From Paracyclopina nana (taxonomy: Eukaryota > Arthropoda > Copepoda > Cyclopoida > Cyclopettidae): DNA of 64,000 bases. Below are positions 6,401 to 62,205 of this stretch, in pieces. A program made the position numbers and the translations under genes. Where the stretch lies: NCBI GenBank assembly GCA_019096065.1, contig JAGUCH010000002.1:17372501-17436500 (forward strand). Direction: 5' to 3'. Below the pieces are notes generated by a model. That model was not told the DNA's origin and did no database searches. It saw nothing but the letters and a program-made list of their open reading frames with translations. Numbering within the stretch: the first letter of the stretch is position 1; each line of letters starts with the position of its first letter.

Positions 6401-9400
6401 ATAATTTTTTCTTCATTTTCAAATTTTGGGGTGGGTGTATTTAGCATATTTTTCAAAAAAATGAGCTGTTGAAGGGGCAAAAGTAGCTTTTCAAATTCTT
6501 ATGTTGTGATGGGCGCCGGAAATCGATTCAGGCATTTGGCCCCTGAAAAACCACATGAAAGACCTTTCAGGTGGTCGAATTCATTTAGGTTAGGTTTGCT
6601 GCCACTTTTCTGTGCCTTTCAGAAGAACATGTATATGTTTTTCCAATGAGAAGCGCCCTCTAACGGACAAATTTGTCCCTCCGCTGCCTTATAGAAATAC
6701 AAACTAATGGACCTGGAGGAGTGGGGACGACCAGTCAGAATGCCTCAAACAGGTCTGAAATTCTCTACATGAGTGCCTTGCTTGGCAGGCTGACCAACCA
6801 AGTGTCTGATCAAGTCTTGACCCTTCTGAATGAAGCAGTGGATTCCCATTTCAAGTAAGATCCCTGAAAACCCTTGACAGGATGCTCATGATGCTCTCCC
6901 TGATCATTTTCAGATGTGTCAGGGGAATGATTTTCGGATTTGATTACCTGACAGTGTTGAATCCGGATTTTGTTGCGGATCTGGTCAAGGAGTACTTGCT
7001 CTATGCTCCCAATGATCCAGTGCAGCAAGGCCAAGCTGTGCCTTCAGGTGAATCATCCTCAATGGTCTTGAAATGGTCAGTTCAATGAAGTGTTTTCCTT
7101 TGCAGCCCTGAAGCAAGTGCTGATGATCCTTGAGACTGTGACAAGAGCCTGTCCAGGTCTCAGGGATGCCTTGTTCTTGGTGTCAAAGGCCAGGTTTCTG
7201 GCTGGAGACACCAAAGCTGCCCTGAGCACTTTGCAACATGTCGTGGACAACTTGGACTCAACCATGGCTGAAGCCCATTTGCTCATGGCTCAAATCCAGG
7301 TGTACCAAGGGAACTATTTGAGCGCCCAGCAAAGCCTCGAGGTTGGACTCAGCCACAACTTCGAGGTCAAAGATCATCCTCTATTTCACCTGATCAATGC
7401 CAAAGTCCAAAAGGACCAGGGGAAGATCAGCGAGGCTGAGAAAACGCTCAAAAAAGCCCTTGAGCTCACACTCAAGGAGCAAGAAGCAGCTAGAAAGCCA
7501 AAAAAGCCTGGCTCGACTAATCCGGACCAGAGCAAGAAAATCGCTTTCACCACCACTGACCAAGCTACGATTTACCTTGAGTTGGCGGATTGCTACAGAA
7601 TCCAGGGAAAGTCTCAAGAAAGCAACAGGATCATGCAAGAAGCCATGTCCAAGTTTCAGGTATGCCATTAGTAAATCGAGCGAAGCAAGCCTCCCTCCGA
7701 AGAAGGGCTGGAGTTATTGACCTTTAGATGTTGCCCATTAGCCCTCGAGTTTATTTGTTTGCCTACTTTGACATTTGCCCTTTTGGACATTATTGCTTAT
7801 GTACGTTTGCCCTTTTGGACAATATTGCTTATTTACGTTTGCCCTTTTAAACATTTGTCCTTCTCGACATTTGCCCTTTTGGACATTATTGCTTATTTAC
7901 GTTTGCCCCTTTAAACATTTGCCCTTTTGAGTGCTTGCCTCTTTGAGATGGGTTATTACAAATTAACTTATGTCCAAATAGGCAAATGTTCAAATGGGCA
8001 AAGTTCCATAGCAGCAAATGTCCAAGATGGCAAATGTTCAAAATGGCAAATGTCCAAAGGGGCAAATGTACAAAGGGGCAAAGTTCCATAGCAGCAAATG
8101 TCCAAGATGACAAATTTCCCAAATGGCAAATGTCAAAAGGGGCTAATATCCAAATTGGCAAATGTCCAAATGGGCTAATATACAAATTGGCAAATGTCCA
8201 AATGGGCAAATTGTCCTCTAGGACAATGTACCAAAGGGGCAATTAACCAAAGTTCAAGGCAAAAGACCTTAGTTTGAGACAAAAGACCACAAAGTTCAAG
8301 GAAAAATGTCCAAAGAGTTGAATGTCCACAAATAGGCAAAGTTCCAAAAGCGGCGAATGTCTACGGTGGCAAATGTCCCAAATGGCAAATGTCAAAAGGG
8401 GCTAATATCCAAATTGGCAAATGTTCAAATGGGCAAAGTTCCATAGCAGCAAATGTCCAAGATGGCAAATGTCCCAAATAGCAAATGTTCAAAATGGCAA
8501 ATGTCCAAAGGGGCAAATGTTCAAATGGGCAAATGTTCAAATGGGCAAAGTTCCATAGCAGCAAATGTCCAAGATGACAAATGTCCCAAATGGAAAATGT
8601 CCAAAGGGGCTAATATCCAAATTGGCAAATGTCCAAACGGGCAAAGGACAAATGTCCAAAGGGCCAATGTCCAAAGGGCCAATGTCCAAAGGGCCAATGT
8701 CCAAAGGGCCAATGTCCAAAGGGCCAATGTCCAAAGGGCCAATGTCCAAAGGGCCAATGTCCAAAGGGCCAATGTCCAAAGGGCCAATGTCCAAAGGGCC
8801 AATGTCCAAAGGGCCAATGTCCAAAGGGCCAATGTCCAAAGGGCCAATGTCCAAAGGGCCAATGTCCAAAGGGCCAATGTCCAAAGGGCCAATGTCCAAA
8901 GGGCCAATGTCCAAAGGGCCAATGTCCAAAGGGCCAATGTCCAAAGGGCCAATGTCCAAAGGGCCAATGTCCAAAGGGCCAATGTCCAAAGGGCCAATGT
9001 CCAAAGGGCCAATGTCCAAAGGGCCAATGTCCAAAGGGCCAATGTCCAAAGGGCCAATGTCCAAAGTGGCAATTGCCCTTAACATCCAAGGGCCAAAGGG
9101 ACTCAACCAAAATAAATTTGCTATATGTTTGCCCACAGGCTACACCAGAAGAGATACGATTTACTGTTGCCAATGCCGACCTTGCCCTGCAGAGAGGTGA
9201 AACTGATACTGCGTTGGACATTCTGAGGACAATTGGATCTGAGCAGCCCTATTTCATCCAGGCAAAGGAAAAAATGGCTCAAATTTACCTGCATCACAGA
9301 AAAGACAAGAAAATGTACGCCAATTGCTACAGGCAAATTGTGGAAAAGTCTCCTACACCTCAAAGCTATGTTCTTTTGGGCGACGCCTACATGGCCATAC

Positions 9401-12229
9401 AGGTAAAACTTACCATTATTATGTTAGCCAATTTTTTTGAAAGCCACATTTTATAAGTCAATTTTTTACAATCTGTGTATTTGGGCTAGCTATTTAGCTG
9501 CAACTAGTCGCTTTGGGTGTCTATAACAATGTCTGATGGAAACAGACACTTTGCCTGTATAGCTAATTTGCCATTTATTGTCCACTTGGCTTTTAAAATA
9601 GCTACTTTGGCTGTAAATAGCCACTTTGCCTTCAAATACCCTCTTTGGCAGTAAGTAGCTTCTTAGGCTGTAAAAAGCCAATTTGCCTTTTAATACTAAC
9701 TTTGGCTGTAAATGGCTACTTTTGTCTGTAAATAGCCACTTACCTTTAAAGACCGAATTTGGCAGAAAATCACTACTTAGGCTGCGGCTGAAAATAGCCA
9801 CTTTGCTTTTAAATACCCCACTTTGGCTGTAAAAAGCTATTTTGGCTGTTAAGCACTACTTTGGCTGTACATAGACTATTTGGCTGTAAATAGCCAATTT
9901 AGCTGTAAATAGCCAATTTAGCTGTAAATAGCCACTTTCTGGCTGTAAATAGCCAATTTGGCTGTAAATAGCCAATTTGGCTGCAAATAGACACTTTGGC
10001 TGGCCAATTTGGCTGTAAATAGCCAATTTGGCTGTAAATAGCCACTTTGGCTGCAAATAGACACTTTGGCTGTAAACCATTTGGCTGTAAATAGCCACTT
10101 TGGCTGTAAGTAGCCGATTTGGCTGCATATATCTTCTTTGACTGCCAAGAGCTACTTTGGCTGTAAATTGCCACTTAGGCTGTAAATTGCCACTTTGGCT
10201 GTAAATAGTTACTGTAAATAGCAATGCAGGATAAAAAAAGTTATATTGACTATAATTGCCCTGTCAAACGGAAATAGCCACTATTTGGCTGAAAATAGTC
10301 ATCTTTGGCTGAAATTGTCATTTTTTGGCTGAAAATAGTCATTTTTCGGCTGAAAATAGCCATTTTTTGCTCAAAGTAGCCACTTTAGGCTTTTTATGTT
10401 AATGCCTAATACAGCGAAAATTTCCTAGGTTTTCCTGAGTGAGCCTTCATTGACATAAATCAAGTCCTATCTTTCAGGAGCCTGAGAGGGCCCTCGAAAT
10501 TTATGAGGAGGCCAGGAAAAGGAATCCCAGGGACACTCAGCTGGCCGCCAAAATGGGCCAAGCTCTTCAGAAGACCCACCAGTATGGCAAGGCCATCAAC
10601 TATTACCGCGAGGCCGTGAAGAATGAGGACCACAGCAGCCTCAGATTTGACCTGGCCGAGCTGCTCATGAAGCTCAAGACCTATGACAAGGCCGAGCGGG
10701 CCATCAACGAGGCCCTGAAGGAGGAGGCCAAGTCGAACGATCTGGCCTCTCTGATGGCCCAGGCCAAATTCGTCACCCTGTTGGCCACTGTGCACGAGAA
10801 GAATGGCAACATGGAGGCTGGCTTGAAGTGCCTCTCCGAGGCCAAGGAGATCCGGGCCAAGCTGCTCAAGCGGGTGCAAGTGGAGCAGCCTGATGCAGTC
10901 CTGGAGCATAGGCAGCTGAGTGCCTCGATCTGCCACCAGATGGCCGAGCAGGCCATCAATCATAGGGACTTTGACACTGCCATCCAGTACTACAAGGAGG
11001 CCCTGACCTTCCACCCTGAGGATGACATTGCCCTGTGTGCCCTGGCCAGGCTCCACCTGATGAATGATGATCTTGACCAGTGTCAGTACACCTGCATGAC
11101 CCTCCTGAGGAAGGACAAGGAGAACGAGGAGGCCACTGTCATGATGGCGGATTTGGCCTTCCGGAAAAACGACTACGAGGCCGCCATGGTGCACTTCCAG
11201 ACCCTGCTGGAGAAAAGGCCAGACTACTGGGTGGCCCTGGCCAGGCTGGTGGAGGTGATGCGGCGGACTGGCCACCTGGAAGGGGTGCCTGAATTCCTGG
11301 CCAAATCCGAGGAGTTTGTGGGCACCAGGGCCAGCCTGGAGCCAGGCCTGAACTTTTGCAAGGGCATGTTCGAGTGGTACTCTGGCAACCCCAATGAAGC
11401 CCTCAAGCTCTTCAACAAGGCGAGGAAGGACCAGGAGTGGGGCCAGAGGGCCATCTTCAACATGATTGAAATCTGCATCAACCCTGACAACCAGATGCTG
11501 GGCGGCGAGGTGTTTGAGTCCGTGGACTCTGAGGTCACCGCTGACACTAGGGACAGCCAGGAGATGGCTCTGAGGACAGCAGAGAAGCTGCTCAGGGAGC
11601 TGAATCCCAAGCCTGGCCAGCAAATGATGAGTTTCCAGCTGCTCCAGGGCATGCTCCAATTGGCCACCAAGAACAAGGTAGTCATTGAGAAGGCGCTGCA
11701 GGACTTTCTCTCCCTGGCTGCCATGGAGCAGCAGGGCAGGGAGAATGTGGGAGCTGTCATGGGAATGGCCACTGCCTACCAGCTCCTCAAGCAGACTCCG
11801 AGGGCAAGGAACCAGCTCAAGAGGGTGGCCAAGCACAGCTGGAACTTTGACGATGCTGAATACCTTGAGAGGTGCTGGCTCCTGCTTGCGGATATCTACA
11901 TTCAAGGGGGCAAGTTTGACTTGGCCACGGAGCTCCTGAGAAAAGTCCTGATCCACAACAAGTCAAGCACAAAGTCCTACGAGTACATGGGCTATATCAT
12001 GGAGAAGGAGTCCTCGTACAAGGACGCGGCCCAGCATTACGAGTTGGCATGGAAGTTTAGCAACAAGGCCAACCCCACCGTGGGCTACAAGCTGGCCTTC
12101 AACTACATGAAGGCCAAGCGGTTCACGGATGCAATCGATGTGTGCCATGACATCCTTGAAAAGTATCCCAACTATCCCAAAATTCGCAAGGAGATTCTCG
12201 AAAAGTCCAGAGAGTGTTTGCGCAAATGA
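3440..12229 (+). CDS. TTC21B: Intraflagellar transport protein IFT139 / tetratricopeptide repeat protein 21B
   Basis: Ten exons join in frame to about 1342 codons (the vertebrate family is about 1316): 3440-3514, 3575-3709, 3927-4178, 4232-4795, 4846-4984, 6695-6854, 6914-7047, 7106-7659, 9139-9402 and 10478-12229. IFT139 is a core subunit of the IFT-A complex and drives retrograde transport in cilia. The protein is TPR repeats from end to end, and family blocks are visible throughout: DPVFRF near residue 35, LALQDWEQ, AEQPYFI.A.EKMA.IYL.HRKDK before exon 10, then EEPERALEIYEEA-like TPRs, ARKDQEWGQRAIFNMIEIC, PRARNQLKRVAK and the C-terminal [11 protein letters not shown]...[12 protein letters not shown]. 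Exon 5 ends with a GC donor (AAAG|GCAAGA), the only frame-preserving choice. Introns 5, 8 and 9 are enlarged by repeats (described separately). The last exon is duplicated immediately downstream. Confidence 0.97.
5559..6030. mobile_element. MITE family 'GGGTTCATTTGG', copy A (TTC21B intron 5)
   Basis: The left end carries AAAGCTTATTTCCCTTGGG followed by TTCATTTGG and AATCCTGGCC. The right end carries the inverse (GACCAGGATTTCAAATTTTG, CCAAACGAACCCTTC). The interior is A/T rich and non-coding. Related copies sit in an OAT intron (16625-17095) and a LARS2 intron (43399-43853). The termini share inverted symmetry in all three. No transposase is seen. I could not fix a target-site duplication for this copy. 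Confidence 0.7.
6059..6592. mobile_element. MITE with ATGAATTCGACCACC ends (TTC21B intron 5)
   Basis: Outer inverted repeats ATGAATTCGACCACC (about 6059) and GGTGGTCGAATTCAT (about 6572) enclose a second, inner pair, TTTCCGGCGCCCATCAC (about 6140) and GTGATGGGCGCCGGAAA (about 6507). The element is non-coding. It lies directly beside copy A of the other MITE family in the same intron. Confidence 0.65.
7735..9100. repeat. Foldback minisatellite filling TTC21B intron 8
   Basis: From 7735 to about 7935 the strand reads repeats of the type ACATTTGCCCTTTTGGAC. From about 7980 to 9075 it reads the inverse type (GTCCAAAGGGGCAAATGT and variants AAGTTCCATAGCAGCAAATG). The array therefore switches orientation and could fold back on itself. 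The long open frames across it arise because the unit lengths are multiples of three, and they are not genes. Confidence 0.8.
8654..9068. repeat. Near-perfect 15-bp minisatellite (about 28 copies)
   Basis: The unit CCAAAGGGCCAATGT repeats about 28 times head to tail without visible change, four units per 60 bases. It forms the right part of the foldback array in TTC21B intron 8 and ends 70 bases before the exon 9 acceptor. Its homogeneity contrasts with the degenerate copies on its left, implying recent expansion. Copy number in an assembly may be unreliable. Confidence 0.95.
9484..10395. repeat. Minisatellite of self-complementary 17-18-bp units in TTC21B intron 9
   Basis: Dozens of degenerate units of the form TGGCTGTAAATAGCCA(A/C)TT run from the exon 9 donor side to about 80 bases before exon 10. 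TGGCT and AGCCA within each unit are complementary, so each copy is itself a small hairpin. Orientation does not flip across the array. Apparent minus-strand open frames (about 9490-10224) are by-products of the repeat. Confidence 0.85.
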
Positions 12230-15939: not shown

Positions 15940-17896
15940 ATGCAGGCAACTATCATCAACACCAATGGAAATCATTCCTATCCTACCAAGGCCAAGGTGG
16001 TGGCCAATGGAAAACCCAAGGTTTTAATTAATTGGTGAAACTGCTCACAAACATTCATGGATTATTTTGGCAGGCTCACCACAGCTCTCAAGATCTGTTT
16101 GGCTTGGTGGACAAGTATGGCTCTCATGACTACAAGCCAATTCCAGTGGCTTTGGCCAGAGGCAAGGATATCTTTGTGTGGGATGTTGAAGGGAAACGCT
16201 ACTATGATTTCCTGAGCGGATATGCTGCTTTGAACCAGGGTCATTGCCATCCCAAAATTGTGGCTGCCATGCAAGAGCAATGCGAAACGCTCACTCTGAC
16301 CTCAAGAGCCTTCCAAAATGACCAGTTTGGGGTGTACGCAGAGTATGCGTGCAAACTGCTTGGATTTGACAAGTTGATGCCTACCAACACTGGTGTGGAG
16401 GGGGGAGAGGCTGCCAACAAGTTGGCCAGGAAATGGGGCTACTTGGTGAAGGGCATTCCTGAAAACGAGGCGAGGATCATTTTCTGCCAAAACAACTACT
16501 GGGGACGCACTTTGGCTGCCATTTCAAGCTCCACCTGTGCTTCAGCCACTGTGGGATTTGGACCCTTCATGCCTGGGTAAGTGCTCAAAAAATAGTACCA
16601 GGGCTTGACTCCTATTAGGGGCTGAAAGCTTTGTCCCAAGGGTAGTTTTAAAATCCTGGCCTATCCCTCCTCATAACATAACATTTTAAAAAACCTCTAG
16701 CTCTCTTCAGCGTGCTTTTTTCGATAAGTTGAGCTTCTAATACCCCTCATCAAATCAAAAGGGCTTACTTTTTTTATTTCATAAGCAAATCGCTAGAATG
16801 GTCAGGAAAGGAGATATGGAGTGCCAAACTTTATATTAAATTGTTACAAATGTTTAGCCACTTGAAAAAGTGTCCCTCTGTATCTCTTTTCCCGGTCGTC
16901 CTAGCAACTTGCTTATGAAATTAAAAAAGTTAGATCTTTCAATTTTGTTGGGGGTTATTGAAATGCATGATAGCAATAAAACAAAGTGGTACTGAGCTAG
17001 ACGTTTTTCAAAATTTTATGTTATGGGAAGCGCCAGGCCAGGATTTTATAACTACCCTCAAACAAACCCTTGGGACATAAGCTTTCAGGAAATATATGCT
17101 AGAAAATGAAGTCAATAATTTTGATGAAGGTATGACATTGTTCCCTTCAATGACCTCGATGCTCTGGAGGAGAAGTTGAAGAATCCTAATGTGTGCGCAT
17201 TCATGGTGGAGCCAATTCAAGGCGAGGCTGGAGTGATTGTGCCAGATGATGGATACTTGACTGGTGTCAGGAGGCTTTGCACTCAATACAACGTCCTTTT
17301 CATTGCTGATGAGGTGCAAACTGGACTCTGCAGGACTGGCAAGCTCTTGGCAGTGCACCATGAGAATGTCAAGCCTGACATCTTGATCTTGGGCAAAGCA
17401 TTGTCCGGGGGAACCATGCCAGTGTCTGCTGTCCTTGCCAATGATGACATTATGCTCTGCATCAAGCCAGGTGAGCATGGATCCACCTATGGAGGCAATC
17501 CATTGGCATGCAGGATTGCCAAAACTGCTCTCCAAGTTTTGGTTGAGGAGAACATGGCTGAAAACGCTGAGAAAATGGGCATCATTGTCAGGTATTGGCA
17601 ACACTCATATTAGAACAATAATCAATAATCCATGATCCAAATTCAGGGAAGAGCTGAACAAGATTGACAAGAACATTGTCTTGCAAGTGCGAGGCAAGGG
17701 GCTGCTCAATGCTGTGGTCATTGCTGACCACATTGATGCCTGGGATGTCTGCCTGAAACTGGCTGAAAACGGGCTTCTCTGCAAGCAGACTCACAGGAAT
17801 GTGGTGCGATTTGTGCCAGCCTTGACCATCACTGAAGGGGAATTGCGAAAGGCTCTCAAGATCATCAAGGACACCATTGAGACCTTCAAGAAGTAA
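15940..17896 (+). CDS. OAT: Ornithine aminotransferase
   Basis: Exons 15940-16020, 16074-16576, 17130-17591 and 17647-17896 give 431 codons. The enzyme is a PLP-dependent class III aminotransferase converting ornithine and 2-oxoglutarate to glutamate semialdehyde and glutamate, usually in the mitochondrial matrix. Family blocks are present in order: [68 protein letters not shown] (cofactor Asp), [15 protein letters not shown] (PLP lysine near residue 284), [13 protein letters not shown] and [11 protein letters not shown]. The length is normal. The N-terminus ([19 protein letters not shown]) is weak as a mitochondrial presequence, so either an upstream first exon is missed or the enzyme is cytosolic. 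The donor of exon 1 (AAG|GTTTTA) is weak. Intron 2 carries a MITE. Confidence 0.96.
16625..17095. mobile_element. MITE family 'GGGTTCATTTGG', copy B (OAT intron 2)
   Basis: The ends are AAAGCTTTGTCCCAAGGG (left) and CCCTTGGGACATAAGCTTT (right). Internal inverse segments are TTTTAAAATCCTGGCC and GGCCAGGATTTTAT. It is non-coding and is the best-preserved pair of termini of the three copies in this window. Confidence 0.78.
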
Positions 17897-27412: not shown

Positions 27413-30400
27413 GTCCTACTAAAAGGCACACAATACCCACAATTGGCACACAATGCCCACAATATCCACAAGGCACACAACCGGCACACAATTACTAAAA
27501 GGCACACATCGAGTTAAACAATAAAAATTAATAAATGAATCCTAAAAGAAAGTTTTTAGTTTAGAAATGTGCCAAATATAAAAGTACCTTTTTAAAAATA
27601 CAAGGAATCACAATTTGGCAAATATTATTTAACATAACATAATTTGATGCAGCTTTCAAAAATGTAAAACGAAAATTTTCTGACTCTCCTTTGCACACAA
27701 TGATGGCACACATTGGCGCACAATGGCACACAAAATTAACAACCCAAGCACATGATCCAATTAGTTTGCTTTTTTACTCCATGTGTGCCTTTTAGTAATT
27801 GTGTGCCATCTTGGCACACAATGGCACACAATGGCACACAAAGGCACACAATGGGCCACAGTGGCACACAATGGCACACAATGGCCCACAATGGCTCACA
27901 GTTGCACATAATGGCACACAATGGGGCACACAATGGTGGTACACAATGGCCGGTTGAAACGGCAGCAATGCACTACATAAGGCTTGCTGCAAATCAATTG
28001 TTGTTAACAACAAAAGCACACAAAAGCACATATTGGCACACAATGATGGCACACATTGGCACACAATGGCACACAATGGCACACAACGGCACCCAATGAT
28101 GGAAAACTAATAGCAAACTTTTGTTTTTAGCTTAGCTGTGTGCCAATTATGAAATTAGCTTTTAAAATTATTAAGAATAATAATTTGGCTTTTATTATTT
28201 AATTTAAAAAAAAGATACTTTGGGAGAGCTTCCAAAAATGTAAACCGAATAATTTTCTGACTTTGCTTAGCTGAGATAATGCCAAAATTCGGGCAATTAC
28301 TGCTAAATCCATTGTTATTAACAACCCAAGCACATGATCCAATTAGTTTGCTTTTTTACTCCACATGTGCCCTTTAGTAATTGTGTGCCATCATGGCACA
28401 CAATGGCACACAATGGCACACAATGGCACACAAAGGCACACAATGGCACACAATGGGCCACAATGACACACAATGGCCCACAATGGCTCACAGTTGCACA
28501 TAATGGCACACAATGGGGCACACAATGGTGGTACACAATGGCCGGTTGAAACGGCAGCAATGCACTACATAAGGCTTGCTGCAAATCAAAGTCAGAAAAT
28601 TATTGTGTTTAAATTTTCTTGCATTGCTTTGTTAAAATTTCGGCAAATGCAGCTAAATCAATTGTTTTAATAGTTGTTAACAACAAAAGCACATATTGGC
28701 ACACAATGATGGCACACATCGGCACACAATGGCACACAAAGTCACACAAAGTCACACAATGGTACACAATGGCACACAATGGCTGACTTTCCTTTGCACA
28801 CAATGATGGCACACATTGGCGCACAATGGCACACATTGGCGCACAATGGCAAACATTGGCGCACAATGGCACACAATGGCACACAATGGCACACAATGGC
28901 ACACAAAGGCACACAATGGCACACAATGGTCCACAATGGCACACAATGGCTCACAGTTGCACATAATGGCCCACAATGATGGCACACAATGGCCCACAAT
29001 GGCGCACAATGATGGTACACAATGGCCGGTTGAAACGGCAGCCTTTTGTACAATCCACTACATAAGGCTTGCTGCAAATCAAAGTCAGAAAATTATTGCG
29101 TTTACATTTTCTGGCATTGCTTTGTTTTGCTGAGGTAATGCCAAAATTTTGGCAATTACAGCTAAATCAATTGTTGTGAACAACAAAAGCACACAAAAGC
29201 ACATATTGGCACACAATGATAGCACACATCAGCACACAATGGCACACAATGGCGCACAATGGCACACAATGGCGCTGGGGTAACAAGAGGGAGTATCTAG
29301 CTATAATACATGTGAGAGTCAAGTATAGGCAAGTACGTTTCAATGTGATACAACACACAATGGCCGGTTGAAACGATAGCCAACAAAAGCACACAAAAGC
29401 ACATATTGGCACACAATGAGGGCACACATCGGCACACAATGGCACACAATGGCACACAATGGCACACAATGGCACACAACGGCACACAACGGCACACTAG
29501 GATGGAAAACTTATAGCACACTTTTGTGAACACTTTTGTGAACACTTTGGTGACCACTTTTGTGACCACTTTTGTGACCACTTTTGCAACCACTTTTGTG
29601 ACCACTTTTGTGATTACTTTTCTGACCACAAATGGCTCACAATGAAGGCTTACAATGGCTCATAATGATGGCACACAATGGCACACAATTGAAGGTGGTT
29701 GCCTGTTATTAGCTTAGCTGTGTGCCTAATATGAAATTAGCTTTTAAAGTTTTAAAGAATTAAAATTTGGCTTTTTTCATTTTACTAACAATAAAGATAA
29801 TTTAATCCAGTTTCCGAAAATGTAAACAAATTAATTTTCTGACTATGCTTTGCTGAGATAATGCCGAAATTCGGGCAATTACTGCTACAACCTTTGTGTG
29901 CTTGTTGTGTGCCAACATGAAAGTTGCTTTTAAGAATCCAAAGAATTAAAATTCGGCTTGAACTATTTAACATAAAATAAAGGTAATTTGATGCAGTTTC
30001 CGAAAATGTAAACAAATTAATTTTCTGACTTTGCTTTGCAACTTAATGCCAAAATTCGGGCAATTACTGCTAAATCAATTGTTGTTAACAACTAAAAAAC
30101 AATAGCACACAATGAAGGCACACAATGGCGCACAGCAGCACACAATGGCACACAATGGTACACAATAGCACACAAAGGCATACAACGGAAAGTGGTTGCC
30201 TGTTTTTAGCTTAGCTGTGTCCCAAAAATGAAATAAGTTTTTAAAATTATAAAGAATAATAATTTGGCTTTTTTCATTTAACAAAAATAAAGAAAATTTG
30301 GGTGAACTCCCTTAAAAGTAAACAGAATAATATTTTACTTTGCTTAGCTGAGATATTGCCAAAATTTGGGCAATTACCGCAAAATCCATTGTTATTAGCA

Positions 30401-38944: not shown

Positions 38945-39354
38945 CGGGCTAGTAAAGCTGTACTCGAGTTTTCCCATCTTAAAATCCTCGCTCAGCTATT
39001 GAATGACCCTACTTTACGTGCCCCAGCTCAAAATAAATAACTAGTTAGTGACTTTGAATCTAATTTCTCACCTCTTTTTTCCAACTTCTTTGGAATTTGG
39101 ATTAATTCCATGGAAGATGAGGGGCATTAAATTACTTAAAATCCCTCAAATTTGATTCCAGGGCCGTTAAGTATTTAAAATCCCCCAAATTGCTTAGAAA
39201 GAACTGTGATATAAAAGAGCTGAGTCAGATCGGTAAACTGAATTATAACACGAGGAAATCGTATTGCAGTATATAAAATAAAAGTTGACATTGGACGAAA
39301 TGCATTTTTCCCCCTTTTTATTCGGTGAACGAAATTCAAAGAAGAAAATAAACC

Positions 39355-40347
39355 TCACTTCTTGGATCGATTCTTCTTGGCCACTTTACCGCCGCTGCAC
39401 AGTGGGCCACGGAGACCCTTCTTTCTCCATTTCAGCCAAATTATGAAATCCAGTTTCAAACACTTTTTTATCTTAAAATAGTTCGAATGGGTTCTTGGTG
39501 ATCAGAAATGACCATTTAAAAGGCTCTAAATTCAATTCGATTTGTGAATTCATGATCATTTTTGAGAAGCATCCCGAATTTGCTAAAAAAATCTAAGCAA
39601 AAAGAAATGTCAAAAAGTGGCTACAAGCTTCTACTGTTCCATTAGAACCATAATTTTTTTGTTGAAGCCTTAGATTAGAATTAGTCTAAGTATTTTAGGT
39701 CTCAAGAGAACAGGATTTCATTAAAAATAAGGGTCAAAATTGACCCAAAAAGATGAATCTTCTATTTGCATGTAAAACTAAACTAAATATTAGCTGAACT
39801 TTTTAAGTCCAAGGTTGTCCAACCCATAACACTGTCAAATTAGAGAAAAAGTAATATGAACGGGGTTGGATTGCAAAAAAAGTGCGTGAATTTGCGTAAG
39901 ACTTTGCTAGAAAGAGTCAAAAGTTCCAGTTTTACAGTAATTTGGGGGCTTTGCTAATGCGCTGCCGATTTGACGAAAAATAAGAAATGGAGGAAAATGC
40001 TTCAACGGGGCCCACTGTGCGCTGGTTGGTTTCTTCTTCTTTTGCAACTTTTGAATTTTCCGGGTTGACAGCCACTTGGGATAATTGCCATGTTCGTCCT
40101 TGAGTGATTTCTTCGAATATTTCGACTTTTCGCTGACGTCCATAACGGCCTCATTCGAGTCAAGCTGGATGGTGACATCTTCAGTTTTGTCCGCGTTTTG
40201 CATCAGCATATCAGAGCCGTCCTGGCTTTTGAGCTCCTTTGCAGCTTCCAGCATCTTGACAAGCCTTGTATTTTCACGCTCACCATACCGAATCCGCTTC
40301 ACGGCCTTCATTTTTCGCTTCCACTTACTCCTCAAGCTTTTGGCCAT
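39355..40347 (-). CDS. LLPH: LLP homologue (nucleolar learning-associated protein family)
   Basis: The start MAKSLRSKWKRKMKAVKRI is nearly identical to the family N-terminus. The block SKKSLKDEHGNYPKWLSTRK matches the conserved DQHGQYP.W segment, and a basic tail follows. LLPH is a small basic nucleolar protein linked to ribosome biogenesis. The frame is interrupted by a 622-bp element at 39398-40019. Splicing 40347-40016 to 39394-39355 (donor CACA|GTGGGC inside the element end, acceptor CTGTGCAG at its other border) restores a basic C-terminus ending GGKVAKKNRSKK and gives 123 codons (family about 129). Without splicing the frame ends in unrelated residues at 39907. An AATAAA (39317-39322, minus) follows the spliced stop. 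Confidence 0.88.
39398..40019. mobile_element. Transib-like element (CACAGTGGGCC ends) inside LLPH; candidate transposon-derived intron
   Basis: Inverse ends CACAGTGGGCC and GGCCCACTGTG bound 622 bp, flanked by a 5-bp direct repeat CGCTG (39393-39397 and 40020-40024). CACAGTG/CACWATG ends with 5-bp G/C-rich duplications are characteristic of the Transib superfamily. Deleting the element and one CGCTG yields a continuous LLPH frame (KKKKPTSGGKVAKKNRSKK). No transposase is encoded. The assignment to Transib rests on termini and duplication length only. Confidence 0.85.
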
Positions 40348-41164: not shown

Positions 41165-44100
41165 ATGGCAAGCCTAAAAGGCCTCGGTTCGGCCTACCTC
41201 AAGTCTTTTCCTAAAAGTTACATGAGCTTTGGTCGAGTCAGGACCATTTTTAGCTTGACTGGTGAGTGGCCAAAGTACTTGGAAGATAATCATCTCAAAG
41301 CCATTGAGCAACATTGGAAGCCTCTCGTTCCTCAGCTAGTAAAAGAAGCCCAATCCTCTGTTGGCAAAGAGGAAACAAAATACATTCTGAGCATGTTCCC
41401 CTATCCCTCTGGTCAACTTCATATGGGTCATGTGCGCGTTTATGCCATATCTGACGCCATGGCTCATTATCATAGGCTGATGGGCTACAAAGTCATTCAT
41501 CCCATGGGATGGGATGCGTTTGGCCTTCCAGCTGAGAATGCCGCAATCGAACGAAACATTCTGCCTCAAGAATGGACACGGAGAAATATCGAAAGCATGA
41601 GGAGCCAACTAGATGAACTTGCTTGCCTCTTTGACTGGGACCGCGAATTTGCCACGTGCGATCCAAATTATTACAAGTGGACTCAGTACTTTTTTGTCAA
41701 AATGTTCAAGGAAGGGATGGCTTACCAGAAGGAAGCCATTGTGAATTGGGATCCTGTGGACCAAACTGTGCTGGCAGATGAGCAAGTTGACAATCAGGGT
41801 AGATCCTGGAGATCAGGAGCCCTCGTTGAAAAAAGACCACTGAAGCAATGGTTTCTGAGAACGACCCGTTTCTCTAAAGATTTGTACAATGGATTAGACA
41901 GCCTCGATAAGGACAATTGGAGGGATATTGTCAAAATTCAACGGAATTGGATTGGAGAATGTGATGGTACTAATGTTGATTTTGAGCTCGAAAGCAGCGC
42001 TCAAAAGCTCACCGTTTGGACTGACAAGCCTGAATTACTGTCTGAAGTGGCCTTTATAGCCATAACATCAGACCACATTTTGAGCCACACTGAGAGCATC
42101 CTTGCTAGTAAGCTGTTCATCTTCTATAATAATAAGCATAATAATGGCTTATATGTTTCTTTTCAGCGTTTGGCGAAACGGGTAAAATTATGAATCAATA
42201 TGCCATTAATCCGTTCACTGGTACTAGAATTCCTATTCTTATACTTGACATGCAAGGAGAAATGGAAGCTTTTCTGGGTATACCAAGCATTTCAAGCGAA
42301 CACTTGTCCATTTGCCAAGCTGCCAATATTCTATATTTGCCAGAAAAGGTGAATGATTGTAGCTCTGAAGAAGCTCTGGCAAAATTAAGAGAACTCAATG
42401 TAGGCGGGCATTGGACATCTTCCAGGCTCAAAGACTGGCTTGTTTCAAGGCAAAGATACTGGGGCACTCCCATACCAATAATCCATTGCTCTGATTGTGG
42501 AAGTGTGCCAGTCAAAGAGTCAGATTTGCCTGTTGTACTACCCGTTATGGAAACTCTTTCAGTCAAGGGGAAATCTCCACTATTGCACGCTGACGAGTGG
42601 GTCAATGTGCCATGCCCAAGTTGTGGACAAAGTGCCCAACGAGAAACAGACACAATGGACACTTTTGTAGACTCATCATGGTACTTTGCACGCTACCTGG
42701 ATCCAAGGAATGAAAATGAGCCATTTGGCTGGGAGGCAGCAGCCCAAAATCTTCCAGTTGACTTGTACATTGGTGGCAAGGAGCATGCCACGTTGCATTT
42801 GTACTTTGCTCGATTTTTCACCCACTTCATGCACCACATAGGAGTGAGCCCTGTGAAAGAGCCTTTCCAAAACTTGCTGGTGCAAGGCATGGTCAAGGGC
42901 AAAAGCTTCCGGATTAAAGGCACTGGCAAGTATTTGGCACCAAGTGAGGTCTCAGAGCACACTGCCAAGGGCGAAGTAGTCATTGAAGAATGGGAAAAGA
43001 TGTCCAAATCTAAATACAATGGAGTGGATCCTGGAAGTATAATTCAACAGTATGGCAGCGACACCACAAAATTACTCATTTTGTCTGATGTCAGTCCACA
43101 ATCAGACAGAAAATGGAACCCAGAGGACTCTCACCAAAGAATTGAAGGCATGCAAAGGAGAATATGGAAGTTGGTTTACCAAATGATAGAGCTACAAAGC
43201 AGGCAAGATGTCCCTGAGCTCAATAAAGACAAGTTCGAAGAGCAGTCAATGAAATGTTGGGACGCTCGGAATTTCTACTTGAGAGTAAGACACATCACTC
43301 ATTCAATAATTTTAAAGACTTACTGCATAATTCACATTGACTTGAAGAAGGTCCTAACCCAAACTCTTTTTTACAACACCCAATAAATATACATTTTCTG
43401 AAAGCTCATGTTCTAAGGGTTCATTTGGTTATAATTTAAAAATCTGGCTTCCCATAACATAAAAATTTTCGGAAATGTCTAGCACCTACAGTTTATTATT
43501 TTTGGTGATTATATCAATAGCAATGACCCACTCAGAAAAAAGAAATTCAAATTAATCTGTAAAATGCACTCAAATTGAGAAGTTTGCTACCAAACGTATT
43601 ATGCAAAATTAATCAAGTTGGTAGCAAACAACTTTCAGCATGGTTATATCTCCGTTTATGTTCATCTTAGCAATTTTACTATGAAGTAACATCAGTTTAA
43701 TTTTTGAATTTTAGCGATTGAAGCAAACTATCCTGAAGAATAAACTGTTATTGAGCTAAACGTTTTTAAAAATTTGACGTTATTGGAAGCAATAGGCCAC
43801 AATTTTTATTTCAACGCCAAATGAACCTTTGAGACTCAGGCTTTAATATATAATTTTTGGGTATTGTACATAGCTCGGGTTAGATCCTTTGTCAAGTCAA
43901 TTTGATAATTATACATAGGGAGTGAACTATGCGCTGAGAGAAACTCAAAATTTGGCCATGGTGCAAGCCCGCATTCAAGGTCTTTTGGGTGACCTTTGGA
44001 CTTGTCATGGGAGGGTGAAAAGAGACTCTGGTGAATTTCAACGCGCCCTAGCCACAGCTGTCATCCTTTTGGCACCCATGGCACCACACTTCTCATCCGA

Positions 44101-44581
44101 GCTCTGGAGCGGCCTTGCCAAATGTGTGCCCATCATCAAAAATTCCCAGGACTTTGCATGGGACAAATCAGTGTTCCATCAAGCCTGGCCTGAATTGGAC
44201 TCGAATTATTGCCTCAAGTTGCTCGTGCAGAGAAATGGCAAGCCCCTCACTGAGATCCCTGTTGCTCTGCGGGAGTTCAGAGACTTGAATGAAGAGGAAG
44301 CGTTCAACTTGGCATGCTGCGACCAAAAGGTCCAGGAGGATGACGTGCTTGCCAGGAGCTCCAGGCGCAATTTCACCAAGTTGGCAGACTTTGAGGCAAC
44401 CCTAGATTTCAAGGTGGAGGAGCCAAAGCTCACCAAAGAGGAGAAACAGCGACTGAAGGAAGAGAAGAAAGAGGCCAAAAAGTTGAGGTTGCAGAAACGA
44501 GAGGAGAAAATCGCAAAGATCCAGAGTGACATTGAGGCCAAGCAGCAGCGGGGGCGCAAAATACAAAATGATGCTGAATGA
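41165..44581 (+). CDS. LARS2: Leucyl-tRNA synthetase, mitochondrial
   Basis: Exons 41165-42107, 42167-43284 and 43919-44581 give 907 codons (family about 903). The enzyme charges mitochondrial tRNA-Leu. It is a class Ia synthetase: HIGH-type motif HMGH near residue 87 (FPYPSGQLHMGHVRVYAISD), MGWDAFGLPAENAA, the editing insertion, RQRYWGTPIPIIHC, a Cys4-like ribbon (CSDCGSVPV, CPSCGQS), ETDTMDTFVDSSWYF, VDLYIGGKEHA.LHL and KMSKSKYNGVDP near residue 592. The anticodon-binding helices follow in exon 3 (LLAPMAPHFSSELW). The C-terminus has a charged extension of about 55 residues (KLTKEEKQRLKEEKKEAKKL and on) that is not usual for this enzyme. The N-terminus is suitable for mitochondrial targeting. 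Intron 2 holds a MITE. Confidence 0.97.
43399..43853. mobile_element. MITE family 'GGGTTCATTTGG', copy C (LARS2 intron 2)
   Basis: Left AAGGGTTCATTTGG with sub-terminal CCCATAACATAAAAATTTT, and right AAATTTGACGTTATTGGAAG with CCAAATGAACCTTT, are inverse. It is about 450 bp and non-coding. It ends about 65 bp before the exon 3 acceptor. Confidence 0.75.
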
Positions 44582-44596
44582 GAGCATATATTCTTC

Positions 44597-45148
44597 CTTC
44601 CTCTTCAGAGCATATTTCAATTTCTTTGTCAGCTATAGTGAGGTTCTCCATGGAACCTTCCTTAGCTTCTTGCGCCTCAACCTCCAGGGGCTTGAGGTCT
44701 TCAACGTCATGGTCCTTCTGGAGGATGTCAACATTCTTGTAGTCCTCTTCAGTCTGTTGCTCTTCTTACTGCTTTTGGTGCTCAGCTCGAGAATATACCC
44801 ATTTGGCAATTTGGTGGGACAAGTTGCAGTCCTGTTCAAGCAATTGACTTGAATGAAGAGGAAGTGTTCAACTTGGCATGCTGCGACCAAAAGGTCCAGG
44901 AGGATGACGTGCTTGCCAGGAGCTCCAGGCGCAATTTCACCAAGTTGGCAGACTTTGAGGCAACCCTAGATTTCAAGGTGGAGGAGCCAAAGCTCACCAA
45001 AGAGGAGAAACGGCGACTGAAGGAAGAGAAGAAAGAGGCCAAAAAGTTGAGGTTGCAGAAACGAGAGGAGAAAATCGCAAAGATCCAGAGTGACATTGAG
45101 GCCAAGCAGCAGCGGGGGCGCAAAATACAGAATGATAATGATGCGTAA
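44597..45148. pseudogene. Duplicated junction: tail of the neighbouring minus-strand gene plus tail of LARS2
   Basis: The interval 44597-44848 is a copy of the 3' part of the minus-strand gene (source about 45302-45560). The interval 44849-45148 is a copy of the last ~97 codons of LARS2 (source about 44287-44581), still open with its own stop. The order shows a tandem duplication of a ~565-bp block that straddled the two convergent gene ends. The LARS2 copy differs at a few residues (EEEAFN to EEEVFN, EEKQRLK to EEKRRLK, end NDAE to NDNDA). Confidence 0.88.
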
Positions 45149-45172
45149 TGAGAGTATTCTGTATATTCTTCT

Positions 45173-46592
45173 TTAACCTAGCTTGAAAGATTGGAGGAAG
45201 GTGAGGAGACAGCAGATCATGGTCACAACCGTAATTATACAAAATGACTTTGTATACAAGTCTCCAGGATCAGTCCCAACTTCTCCAGCAGATACTAGCT
45301 CCTCTCCTCCAGAGCATATTTCAATTTCTTTGTCAGCAATAGCGAGGTTCTCCTTGGAACCTTCATAGCCTTCATCAGCTTCTTGCGCCTCAACCTCCAG
45401 AGGCTTGAGGTCTTCAACGTCATGGTCCTTCTGGAGGATGTCAACTTTCTTGTAGTCCTCTTCAGGCTGTTGCTCTTCTTGCTGCTTTTGGTGCTCAGCT
45501 TGAGAATCGCTCAATACCCATTCGGCAATTTGGTGGGACAAGTTGCATTGCTGTTCAAGCAATTGAGCAACAACAGGTGACTCCTTTCTCTCAGGTCGAA
45601 CCTTTACTGGCTCCAACTTAACAAAGGTCCTCTCATACGACTCAGGCTTTGACAAAGGCTTTGGCATGACGTCAGCTTGGAACTTGCGCTCCTTGGCCTT
45701 CTTCTCCCAAATGTTGAACGAGCATTCAAAGTCCCTGATGTCAGCCCCATTTGTGGCGAAGAAATTCAAAGGCTCGATATGGAGCTCAGTACAAATCATA
45801 GGAGCATGGCTGTTCCTTAGAAATTTGTAGTCTGCCCATTGAGCAACCTTGACAGGACTCCTATTGGGATTCAGGACGTTGCCAAGGAGCAATTCCCAAT
45901 GGCCAACTCTTGGCTGGAAGGTTGGCTTGTCAGCTTTGGCGAAATTTGGCATGAAATCCCCTCTGCAGTCAGTGTTGTCAATTTTGAGTGGGTTCAAGAT
46001 GAAATCCCCCAATTTCAGCTTGCTTGTCTTCCTGCCTTGTCCACTTTTCAGATCTTGTTGATGCATGGTTTTTGGCTTCTTGTTGTAGAAGGTTTTCCCA
46101 ATTTCAGCATACAAGTCCTGGAAAATCTGATACATAGACACTTGTCCTCCAGCTCCCTTGTGGTGGATAAGCTTGCCACAAAGCTGACAAGTGTAGATGT
46201 CTCCTATTATGTGAGAGCAAAAATTAGACAGAATTGTAAGCATTAGTGAATCATTGTATACCTAGTTGGCCATCACGGATGGTAGGGACACACACTTGTC
46301 CCTTGTCATGGCTGACATCATATCGAAACCAGACGCAACCAGCAGAAGATCGCAAAGGGAAAGGATCAGGCAATTTGGCTGCGCATTTGGAGCCTCGACA
46401 CTTGGTGCACAACCGGGGAATGTTGGCAGCAAAAGCGACGTTTTGCTTGGATGGCCGAAAGTTGATCCATTGGCTGGTTGATCTGGAGTTGACATGGACC
46501 ACCCTCTGCTTGGAAAATCTGCCAAAAACCGAGTCAAATTGGGCATTGACTCGTCTCAGAGCCAACGAGGCTTTTTTCATGTCAATATTCAT
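45173..46592 (-). CDS. Unrecognised protein with Cys pairs and C-terminal membrane anchor
   Basis: Exons 46592-46262 and 46203-45173 join as GQL|GDIYTCQLCG, giving 453 codons. Two Cys clusters are brought together by splicing (CTKCRGSKC in exon 1, CQLCGKLIHH in exon 2), suggestive of a metal site. A middle part with WEKKAKERKFQADVMPKPLS is followed by an acidic Gln/Glu-rich stretch (HQKQQEEQQPEEDYKKVD). The end is one hydrophobic helix (SFCIITVVTMICCLLTFL) with a short tail, as in tail-anchored proteins. I do not recognise the family. It is convergent with LARS2, and part of its 3' end is duplicated at 44597-44848. Confidence 0.7.
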
Positions 46593-57290: not shown

Positions 57291-60200
57291 AAATGACCAC
57301 AAATGACCACTCCTTGATGGGACTTATAATAGCATTTATTCCTAGCCAGACAGATTTCCAAGCTTGAGCGAAAAAATGACCACTCCTTGATGAGACTTTG
57401 GCTCCCAAGGCTAAGTCTAGTCATAAGAAAGACTTGTATGACTTAAGCTTGGACTCAAAAAGCAATGCTTTAAGTAATTTAGTCCACAAAAACTTATTTG
57501 GCTAAGCTTTCTTAAGCTCCTAAGAACTGGACTTGACTTATGCAAAAGACCACTCCTTGATGGGACTTTTAATAAGATTTATTCCTAGCCAGACAGATTT
57601 CCAAGCTTGAGCGAAAAAATGACCACTCCTTGATGAGACTTTGGCTCCCAAGGCTAAGTCTAGTCATAAGAAAGACATGTATGACTTAAGCTTGGACTCA
57701 AAAAGCAATGCTTTAAGTAATTTAGTCCACAAAAACTTATTTAGCTAAGTTTTCTTGAGTTACTAAGAACTGGACTTGACTTATGCAAAAGACCACTCCT
57801 TGATGGGACTTTTAATAAGATTTTTTCCTAGCCAGACAGATTTCCAAGCTTGAGTGAAAAAATGACCACTCCTTGATGAGACTTTGGCTCCCAAGGCTAA
57901 GTCTAGTCTTAACAAAGACATGTATGACTTAAGCTTGGACTCAAAAAGCAATGCTTTAAGTAATTTAGTCCACAAAAACTTATTTAGCTAAGTTTTCTTG
58001 AGTTACTAAGAACTGGACTTGACTTTTGCTAATGACCACTCCTTGATGGGACTTTTAAAAAGATTTATTCCTAGCCAGACAGATTTCCAAGCTTGAGTGA
58101 AAAAATGACCACTCCTTGATGAGACTTTGGCTCCCAAGGCTAAGTCTAGTCATAACAAAGACTTGCATGACTTAAGCTTGGACTCAAAAAGCAATGCTCT
58201 AAAAAAATTAGTCCACAAAAACTTATTTGGCTAAGCTTTCTTAAGCTCCTAAGAACTGGACTTGACTTATGCAAAAGACCACTCCTTGATGGGACTTTTA
58301 ATAAGATTTATTCCTAGCCAGACAGATTTCCAAGCTTGAGCGAAAAAATGACCACTCCTTGATGAGACTTTGGCTCCCAAGGCTAAGTCTAGTCATAAGA
58401 AAGACTTGTATGACTTAAGCTTGGACTCAAAAAGCAATGCTTTAAGTAATTTAGTCCACAAAAACTTATTTAGCTAAGTTTTCTTGAGTTACTAAGAACT
58501 GGACTTGACTTATGCAAAAGACCACTCCTTGATGGGACTTTTAATAAGATTTTTTCCTAGCCAGACAGATTTCCAAGCTTGAGTGAAAAAATGACCACTC
58601 CTTGATGAGACTTTGGCTCCCAAGGCTAAGTCTAGTCATAAGAAAGACTTGTATGACTTAAGCTTGGACTCAAAAAGCAATGCTTTAAGTAATTTAGTCC
58701 ACAAAAACTTATTTGGCTAAGCTTTCTTAAGCTCCTAAGAACTGGACTTGACTTATGCAAAAGACCACTCCTTGATGGGACTTTTAATAAGATTTATTCC
58801 TAGCCAGACAGATTTCCAAGCTTGAGCGAAAAAATGACCACTCCTTGATGAGACTTTGGCTCCCAAGGCTAAGTCTAGTCATAAGAAAGACTTGTATGAC
58901 TTAAGCTTGGACTCAAAAAGCAATGCTTTAAGTAATTTAGTCCACAAAAACTTATTTAGCTAAGTTTTCTTGAGTTACTAAGAACTGGACTTGACTTATG
59001 CAAAAGACCACTCCTTGATGGGACTTTTAATAAGATTTTTTCCTAGCCAGACAGATTTCCAAGCTTGAGTGAAAAAATGACCACTCCTTGATGAGACTTT
59101 GGCTCCCAAGGCTAAGTCTAGTCTTAACAAAGACATGTATGACTTAAGCTTGGACTCAAAAAGCAATGCTTTAAGTAATTTAGTCCACAAAAACTTATTT
59201 AGCTAAGTTTTCTTGAGTTACTAAGAACTGGACTTGACTTTTGCTAATGACCACTCCTTGATGGGACTTTTAAAAAGATTTATTCCTAGCCAGACAGATT
59301 TCCAAGCTTGAGTGAAAAAATGACCACTCCTTGATGAGACTTTGGCTCCCAAGGCTAAGTCTAGTCATAACAAAGACTTGCATGACTTAAGCTTGGACTC
59401 AAAAAGCAATGCTCTAAAAAAATTAGTCCACAAAAACTTATTTGGCTAAGCTTTCTTAAGCTCCTAAGAACTGGACTAGACTTATGCAAAAGACCACTCC
59501 TTGATGGGACTTTTAATAAGATTTATTCCTAGCCAGACAGATATCCAAGCTTGAGCGAAAAAATGACCACTCCTTGATGAGACTTTGGCTCCCAAGGCTA
59601 AGTCTAGTCATAACAAAGACTTGCATGACTTAAGCTTGGACTCAAAAAGCAATGCTCTAAGAAAATTAGTCCACAAAAACTTATTTGGCTAAGCTTTCTT
59701 AAGCTCCTAAGAACTGGACTTGACTAATGCAAAAGACCACTCCTTGATGGGACTTTTAATAAGATTTATTCCTAGCCAGACAGATTTCCAAGCTTGAGCG
59801 TAAAAATGACCACTCCTTGATGAGACTTTGGCTCCCAAGGCTAAGTCTAGTCATAAGAAAGACTTGCATGACTTAAGCTTGGACTCAAAAAGCAATGCTC
59901 TAAGAAAATTAGTCCACAAAAACTTATTTGGCTAAGCTTTCTTAAGCTCCTAAGAACTGGACTTGACTTATGCAAAAGACCACTCCTTGATGGGACTTTT
60001 AATAAGATTTATTCCTAGCCAGGCAGATTTCCAAGCTTGAGTGAAAAAATGACCACTCCTTGATGAGACTTTGGCTCCCAAGGCTAAGTCTAGTCATAAC
60101 AAGGACTTGCATGACTTAAGCTTGGACTCAAAAAGCAATGCTCTAAGAAAATTAGTCCACAAAAACTTATTTGGCTAAGCTTTTAAGTTACTAAAAACTG

Positions 60201-62205
60201 GACTTGGCTTATGCAAAAGACCACTCCTTGATGGGACTTTTAATAAGATTTATTCCTAGCCAGACAGATTTCCAAGCTTGAGCAAAAAAATGACCACTCC
60301 TTGATGAGACTTTGGCTCCCATGGCTAAGTCTAGTCATAACAAAGACTTGCATGACTTAAGCTAGGACTCAAAAAGCAATGCTTTGAGTAAATGAGTCCA
60401 TGAACACTTATTTGGCTAAGCTTTCTTAAGTTACTAAGAACTGGACTTGACTTATGCAAAAGACCACTCCTTGATGGGACTTTTAATAAGATTTATTCCT
60501 AGCCAGACAGATTTCCAAGCTTGAGCGAAAAAATGACCACTCCTTGATGAGACTTTGGCTCCCAAGGCTAAGTCTAGTCATAACAAAGACTTGCATGACT
60601 TAAGATAGGAATCAAAAGCAATGCTTTAAGTAAATGAGTCCATGAAAACTTAGTTGGCTAAGCTTTCTTAAGTTCCAAAGAACTGGACTTGACTTTTGCT
60701 AATGTCTACTCCTTGATGGGACTTTTAATAAGATTTATTCCTAGCCAGACAGATTTCCAAGCTTGAGCAAAGAAATGACCACTCCTTGATGAGACTTTGG
60801 CTCCTAAGGCTAAGTCTAGTCATAACAAAGACTTGCATGACTTAAGCTAGGACTCAAAAAGAAATGCTTTGAGTAAATGAGTCCATGAACACTTATTTGG
60901 CTAAGCTTTCTTAAGTTACTAAGAACTGGACTTGACTTATGCAAAAGACCACTCCTTGATGGGACTTTTAATAAGATTTATTCCTAGCCAGACAGATTTC
61001 CAAGCTTGAGCGAAAAAATGACCACTCCTTGATGAGACTTTGGCTCCTAAGGCTAAGTCTAGTCATAACAAAGACTTGCATGACTTATGGTAGGACTCAA
61101 AAAGCAATGCTTTGAGTAAATGAGTCCATGAAAACTTATTTAGCTAAGTTTTCTTGAGTTACTAAGAACTGGACTTGACTTATGCAAAAGACCACTCCTT
61201 GATGGGACTTTTAATAAGATTTTTTCCTAGCCAGACAGATTTCCAAGCTTGAGTGAAAAAATGACCACTCCTTGATGAGACTTTGGCTCCCAAGGCTAAG
61301 TCTAGTCTTAACAAAGACATGTATGACTTAAGCTTGGACACAAAAAGCAATGCTTTAAGTAATTTAGTCCACAAAAACTTATTTAGCTAAGTTTTCTTGA
61401 GTTACTAAGAACTGGACTTGACTTTTGCTAATGACCACTCCTTGATGGGACTTTTAATAAGATTTTTTCCTAGCCAGACAGATTTCCAAGCTTGAGCAAA
61501 AAAAGACCACTCCTTGATGAGACTTTGGCTCCCAAGGCTAAGTCTAGTCATAAGAAAGACTTGTATGACTTAAGCTTGGACTCAAAAAGCAATGCTTTAA
61601 GTAATTTAGTCCACAAAAACTTATTTGGCTAAGCTTTCTTAAGCTCCTAAGAACTGGACTTGACTTATGCAAAAGACCACTCCTTGATGGGACTTTTAAT
61701 AAGATTTATTCCTAGCCAGACAGATTTCCAAGCTTGAGTGAAAAAATGACCACTCCTTGATGAGACTTTGGCTCCCAAGGCTAAGTCTAGTCATAACAAA
61801 GACTTGCATGACTTAAGCTTGGACTCAAAAAGCAATGCTCTAAGAAAATTAGTCCACAAAAACTTATTTGGCTAAGCTTTCTTAAGCTCCTAAGAACTGG
61901 ACTTGACTTATGCAAAAGACCACTCCTTGATGGGACTTTTAAAAAGATTTATTCCTAGCCAGACAGATTTCCAAGCTTGAGTGAAAAAATGACCACTCCT
62001 TGATGAGACTTTGGCTCCCAAGGCTAAGTCTAGTCATAAGAAAGACTTGCATGACTTAAGCTTGGACTCAAAAAGCAATGCTCTAAGAAAATTAGTCCAC
62101 AAAAACTTATTTGGCTAAGCTTTCTGAAGTCTAGTCATAAAAAAAGACTTGCATGGCTTAAGCTAAGACTCAAAAAGCAATGCTTTGAGTAAATGAGTCC
62201 ATGAA
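57291..62205. repeat. 243-bp satellite array with higher-order structure (about 20 monomers)
   Basis: Monomer starts (GACCACTCCTTGATGGGACT) are at 57548, 57791, 58034, 58277, 58520, 58763 and on, exactly 243 bp apart. Each monomer has a second related word, GACCACTCCTTGATGAGAC, about 70 bp in. Variant monomers (for example with TTTTGCTAATGACC at 58034 and 59249) recur 1215 bp = 5 monomers apart. The 64-codon minus-strand frames repeated at 57781, 58996 and 61180 are part of the monomer. Confidence 0.95.

Follow-up and report, generated by a model that had tools for sequence, protein, structure and literature searches.

Can a DNA transposon that lands in an exon be born as an intron, with splice sites at its own ends? 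This question is raised by the LLPH gene of the copepod Paracyclopina nana, located on the minus strand of the 64,000-nucleotide stretch of DNA analysed here (the window). An earlier note had proposed that a transposon lying in this gene has become one of its introns. We find that one part of this proposal, the Transib insertion and its splice geometry, is supported, whereas the status of intron remains a proposal, given a weak donor, stronger acceptors inside the element, the youth of the insertion and the other copies lacking the geometry. We consider it likely that a recent Transib insertion created in LLPH a latent, frame-neutral intron.

The LLPH gene starts at 40347, and its residues 1–105 match the Pfam family PF10169 (E 3.7e-21). 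A 622-bp element (39398–40019, no strand assigned) interrupts its coding sequence. On the minus strand, the part preceding the candidate donor, which ends with the CACA of the element, occupies positions 40016–40347, and the 3′ coding end (GGKVAKKNRSKK and the stop) positions 39355–39394. The ends of the element are CACAGTGGGCC and GGCCCACTGTG, i.e., an 11-bp inverted repeat with CACAGTGGGCC at both ends (39398–39408 on the plus strand and 40009–40019 on the minus strand), and both flanks carry the target-site duplication CGCTG (39393–39397 and 40020–40024). The window contains two exact matches to this 11-mer, which are the two ends of the element, and two matches with one mismatch, both within simple-repeat DNA. 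CACAATGGGCC at 27847 and 28449 was considered as a pair of element ends and rejected, being simple-repeat DNA. Scripted in silico excision of the element and of one CGCTG gives a 122-residue stop-to-stop frame ending in TSGGKVAKKNRSKK, with the tail GGKVAKKNRSKK. The ten best relatives of this protein are 61–66% identical to it. By manual count, the tail motif G-K-(V/I)-x-K-(K/R) is present at or near the end of 12 of the 21 aligned relatives, and its strict form, G-K-V-x-K-K, in 4 of the 21. Hence, the inverted ends and duplication, the location within the coding sequence of a ribosome-biogenesis gene and the restoration of a conserved C-terminus, all three claimed in the earlier note, are confirmed. 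An intact second LLPH locus, which that note had envisaged as a counter-argument, was rejected: LLPH gives a single match in the 91.95-Mb assembly.

The element belongs to a family. Searching the genome with it gave 70 first-look places, and all 40 of those scored were matching; an internal 24-mer was found, at 3 mismatches or fewer, at 57 places in the genome versus 0 for a control pattern. A perfect 5-bp duplication, taking the best choice among near-matching ends, flanks 39 of the first 40 copies. The same is true for 51 of the 53 copies of a wider set, in which 4 of the last 17 of 57 copies were dropped for want of an accepted end pair and the 13 retained were selected with at least 4 of 5 duplication bases matching. 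The duplication consensus in the copy set is C-R-N-Y-G. In the copy L028, one additional base separates the element end from an otherwise matching CATTG duplication. The copy located in LLPH differs by a single alignment column from each of four other copies, by 2 and 10 columns from two more and by 35 from L015. Because of this one-column difference from four other copies, the insertion in LLPH must be recent. An Rfam search gave no match at gathering thresholds.

What kind of element is it? According to PMC7204232 and PMC8355894, Transib and RAG-like elements have ends beginning with CAC that resemble the heptamer of the recombination signal sequence (RSS), and they make 5-bp duplications. 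The ends of the 622-bp element begin with CAC and contain the RSS-heptamer-like CACAGTG, and its family makes 5-bp duplications. Moreover, the genome harbors a full-length partner of 3,020 bp (L049:1504-3014 and its continuation in L077; G000:C1, about 2177476-2180495), which ends in CACAGTGGGCC on both sides, has the same CGCTG duplication as the copy in LLPH and contains a stop-to-stop frame of 703 codons. The first 389 residues of this frame match the solved chain 6pqn (E 1.4e-13, aligned residues 179–379), which we take to be the Helicoverpa Transib transposase. A Pfam search of this protein gave no family, and a protein database search with it (7,993 candidates scored) gave one relative, 38% identical. 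The first 13 bases of the full-length element are those of the LLPH element, and 35 of its last 45 bases, reversed, equal the left end of the latter. The resident partner, sharing ends and duplication length and matching 6pqn, supports a Transib origin for the LLPH element, which agrees with the "Transib-like" label of the earlier note. Judging from the similarity of the ends, the 622-bp element is a non-autonomous copy (MITE) that a resident Transib transposase probably mobilised in trans. The genome has 23 stretches matching the 389 residues; the partner's own sequence is among them, and some stretches belong to a single element; Transib is therefore diverse here. Compared to cut-and-paste Transib transposons and their non-autonomous derivatives, the family shows the same CAC-initial ends, the same duplication length and a resident partner encoding a Transib-type transposase; it differs by one copy that splits a host coding frame with splice-ready borders, and by a duplication preferring C-R-N-Y-G. 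We also observed a second non-autonomous family, of about 455 bp with CACAGTGG-type ends (L059:1504-1957; L078-L089). A search for it scored 40 of 348 first-look places, and a perfect 5-bp duplication flanks 13 of the 13 copies read.

How could such an insertion leave a gene with a splice-ready border? On the coding strand, the element starts with CACA|GTGGGC and its far border reads CACTGTG-CAG|CG, the CAG being given by the duplication (CAGCG on this strand). Removal of 40015–39395, i.e., of a candidate 621-bp intron GTGGGC...TGTGCAG on the minus strand, keeps the LLPH frame and adds only Ala-His. The six bases left behind are CACA and the CG that ends the duplication. Since 4 + 5 − 3 = 6, the frame survives wherever the duplication, read on the coding strand, starts with CAG. 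Thus, a donor contributed by the GT lying four bases into the heptamer, an acceptor drawn partly from the duplicated target and an intact frame with two extra residues were all correctly described in the earlier note, and the geometry is more general than it had claimed. In the scenario that we favor, a non-autonomous Transib copy inserted very recently towards the 3′ end of the coding sequence of LLPH, a single-copy gene, duplicating CGCTG. Its heptamer provides the GT, the duplication starting with CAG completes an acceptor, and removal from GT to CAG always leaves exactly six extra bases. LLPH would then hold a latent frame-neutral intron, and the family would consist of general-purpose mobile elements and not of specialised intron makers. 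The element end followed by CAG is present at 13 places in the genome, 4 of which, including that of L049, have no accepted partner end within the fetched stretch.

The earlier note went further and proposed that the element has become an intron. On this reading it would be a working spliceosomal intron, with 40015–39395 removed in the main product and two extra residues in the protein. Several observations point in this direction. The proposed pair (donor −0.46 bits, acceptor +0.19 bits, summed score −0.28) is the first of the 26 GT-AG pairs restoring the LLPH tail, and the first of 15 under narrower limits. Its donor, though weak, has the highest score of the 11 GTs examined around the insertion. 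Moreover, LLPH is single-copy, and the linker ahead of the tail motif, where the element inserted, varies in length among the 21 aligned relatives. No AATAAA or ATTAAA was found on the sense strand of the element; the sole such signal between 40347 and 39300 is a native AATAAA (39317–39322, minus strand), past the native stop and beyond the element. Nevertheless, the donor falls below all four donors of LARS2 and OAT (0.94, 1.08, 1.69 and 4.82 bits), and the acceptor, unremarkable among five acceptors of neighboring genes (−4.1 to 3.53), is surpassed by two acceptors inside the element. These are ATTTCTTTTTGCTTAG (39593–39608, minus strand; site 39592), which has the top score at 4.23 bits, and another with its exon side from 39582 (0.44 bits). 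All these scores come from a generic matrix and were compared with only these four donors and five acceptors. The reference exons of OAT, and one of LARS2, were checked against solved enzymes; the joined frames of both genes are open, the final LARS2 piece matched nothing, and the LARS2 intron borders are our own reading. Six other copies lying in host-like frames lack the geometry. Finally, conservation cannot bear on the matter for so young an insertion: at such an age, an intact LLPH tail beyond the element says nothing about selection. Taken together, we regard a working intron as rather unlikely.

The strength of the internal acceptors brings in another outcome, in which splicing would use sites inside the element, for example from the donor of the terminal repeat to the strong acceptor at 39592, and would result in a mixture of aberrant products. 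Indeed, the best-scoring acceptor of the region is internal. The summed score of this pair would top those of the frame-restoring pairs, although the pair itself does not restore the frame and would therefore yield a product without the LLPH tail. We find this outcome decidedly improbable.

The element could also simply stay in the messenger. The LLPH frame is open into the element as far as 39907, where the earlier note had correctly placed the read-through stop, and the last 12 residues would be replaced by 37 others, the insertion being tolerated or carried by one haplotype only. The weak donor and the absence of AATAAA or ATTAAA within the element are consistent with this reading. So are the copies that also split SRCR and HhH-GPD-bearing frames, as expected for recent, partly harmful insertions. 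On the other hand, the replaced tail carries the G-K-(V/I)-x-K-(K/R) motif found in 12 of 21 relatives. For read-through, we consider the chances to be evenly balanced.

Is the geometry at LLPH more than chance? Within the copy set, YAG occupies duplication positions 1–3 on 16 of 102 strands. The geometry is thus common by chance, and a splice-ready border would be expected in roughly one coding insertion out of six. Further copies sit in open frames: one interrupts a Patatin domain (E 1.1e-22) and one an SRCR domain (4.6e-7), two lie a short way downstream of HhH-GPD and ankyrin matches (below Pfam cut-offs), and two fall in a membrane-protein-like and an LNR-like frame (weak matches). None of these six other host-like frames has YAG at duplication positions 1–3 on the coding strand, leaving LLPH as 1 of 7. 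Two more copies, L024 and L075, in retroelement- or virus-like frames, also carry YAG on the coding strand. An excess of splice-ready insertions was rejected: YAG on the coding strand was counted in 3 of 10 frame-interrupting copies, and the chance of at least 3 of 10, calculated by hand from 16/102, is about 0.2. These ten copies (L001, L009, L014, L024, L025, L031, L037, L042, L060 and L075) were picked by eye, leaving out L013 and L035 (frames across the site, no convincing Pfam match) and other frames of at least 70 residues. Coding-like sequence at the 53 insertion sites, compared to 1,522 control windows, gave a one-sided p of 0.21. The test lacks sensitivity, since even the LLPH site scored 1.12, below the threshold of 3.72; its codon model came from 12 stretches mostly picked by eye, and the threshold was set from known coding windows. 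With this weak coding test, nothing here sets the 622-bp family apart from an ordinary transposon. A dedicated Introner family, in which many copies act as introns with fixed splice sites, is not supported, the other host-like frames lacking the geometry.

In the patatin frame, one pair using the element's own donor and ending four bases past the duplication brings no length change. Another, with the same donor, reaches a summed score of 4.79, versus −0.28 for LLPH, and costs 10 residues. Element donors might thus be used at other acceptors too. For the SRCR frame, the best pair that keeps the frame reaches −2.04 at a cost of 25 residues; for the HhH-GPD-bearing frame, the best one reaches −3.10 at a cost of 15. 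The copy in the patatin-like phospholipase frame (L060) lies within a G-x-S-T-G-S-like motif, and the domain spans the site.

Exon transposons removed by splicing have precedents. Maize Ds and dSpm and nematode Tc1 insertions are spliced from messengers, as shown by RNA. The LLPH case resembles them as an exon transposon with candidate splicing at or near its ends; in those cases splicing is proven by RNA, and the elements belong to other superfamilies. Introners derived from DNA transposons, as PMC9860276 describes them, include families that bring their own 5′ splice site while recruiting the 3′ one, and others that add codons, which lends some support to a working intron in LLPH. The likeness is close: the legend of its Fig. 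2C describes a 5′ site in the element and a 3′ site supplied by the insertion, and that of Fig. 2F codons added from 4 bp of element and duplicated bases. On the contrary, those Introner families are sets of similar introns, while here a single host-gene copy has the geometry and its splicing is a prediction. The mechanism is therefore not new in kind; if real, it would extend the known Introner mechanism to Transib. Our literature searches found no paper linking Introners with Transib and, among the best matches listed, none on RSS heptamers as cryptic splice donors. For Introners and copepods, PMC9860276 alone was pertinent, as judged by titles and abstracts.

A bolder reading is that the V(D)J-type heptamer CACAGTG acts as a built-in donor. 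In this case, Transib elements with this heptamer, inserted where the coding strand reads CAGNN, would be born as introns adding exactly two codons in any phase, Transib would be a possible source of introns, and LLPH would be one at birth. We hold this to be unlikely. The case can be compared with the "split receptor gene" model of V(D)J recombination (PMC8355894): in both, a coding exon is interrupted by a Transib-type element with CAC ends, but there the DNA is cut, whereas any removal at LLPH would take place at the RNA level. The birth of an intron is rarely caught in the act. For LLPH, the empty site and the donor family are available, together with a candidate mobilising element and the precise prediction, valid in any phase, of two added codons. 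Should the element prove to be spliced, Transib would count among the sources of introns, and these would be linked to the RAG/RSS system; if it is not, LLPH offers a clean example of chance splice-ready geometry at a transposon end.

Repeats were also noticed elsewhere in the window. The LARS2 intron at 43285–43918 is mostly a high-copy repeat (98 matching stretches; 380 first-look places, 40 scored), which implies that long element-filled introns are handled here. The OAT intron at 16577–17129 is likewise mostly a high-copy repeat (84 matching stretches; 421 first-look places, 40 scored). The matches mostly cover from about base 49 to 620 of the 634 bases of the LARS2 intron, and from 46–65 to about 521 of the 553 bases of the OAT intron. 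These two long introns were rejected as Introners because the repeats sit within short host introns. A second copy of the 3′ end of LARS2 lies downstream of the first (44282–44599 and 44846–45174, 94.5% identity). About 20 tandem copies of a 243-bp unit, with 95% matches, extend over 57300–62130, and short-unit minisatellites occupy 7970–9072 and 9596–10208.
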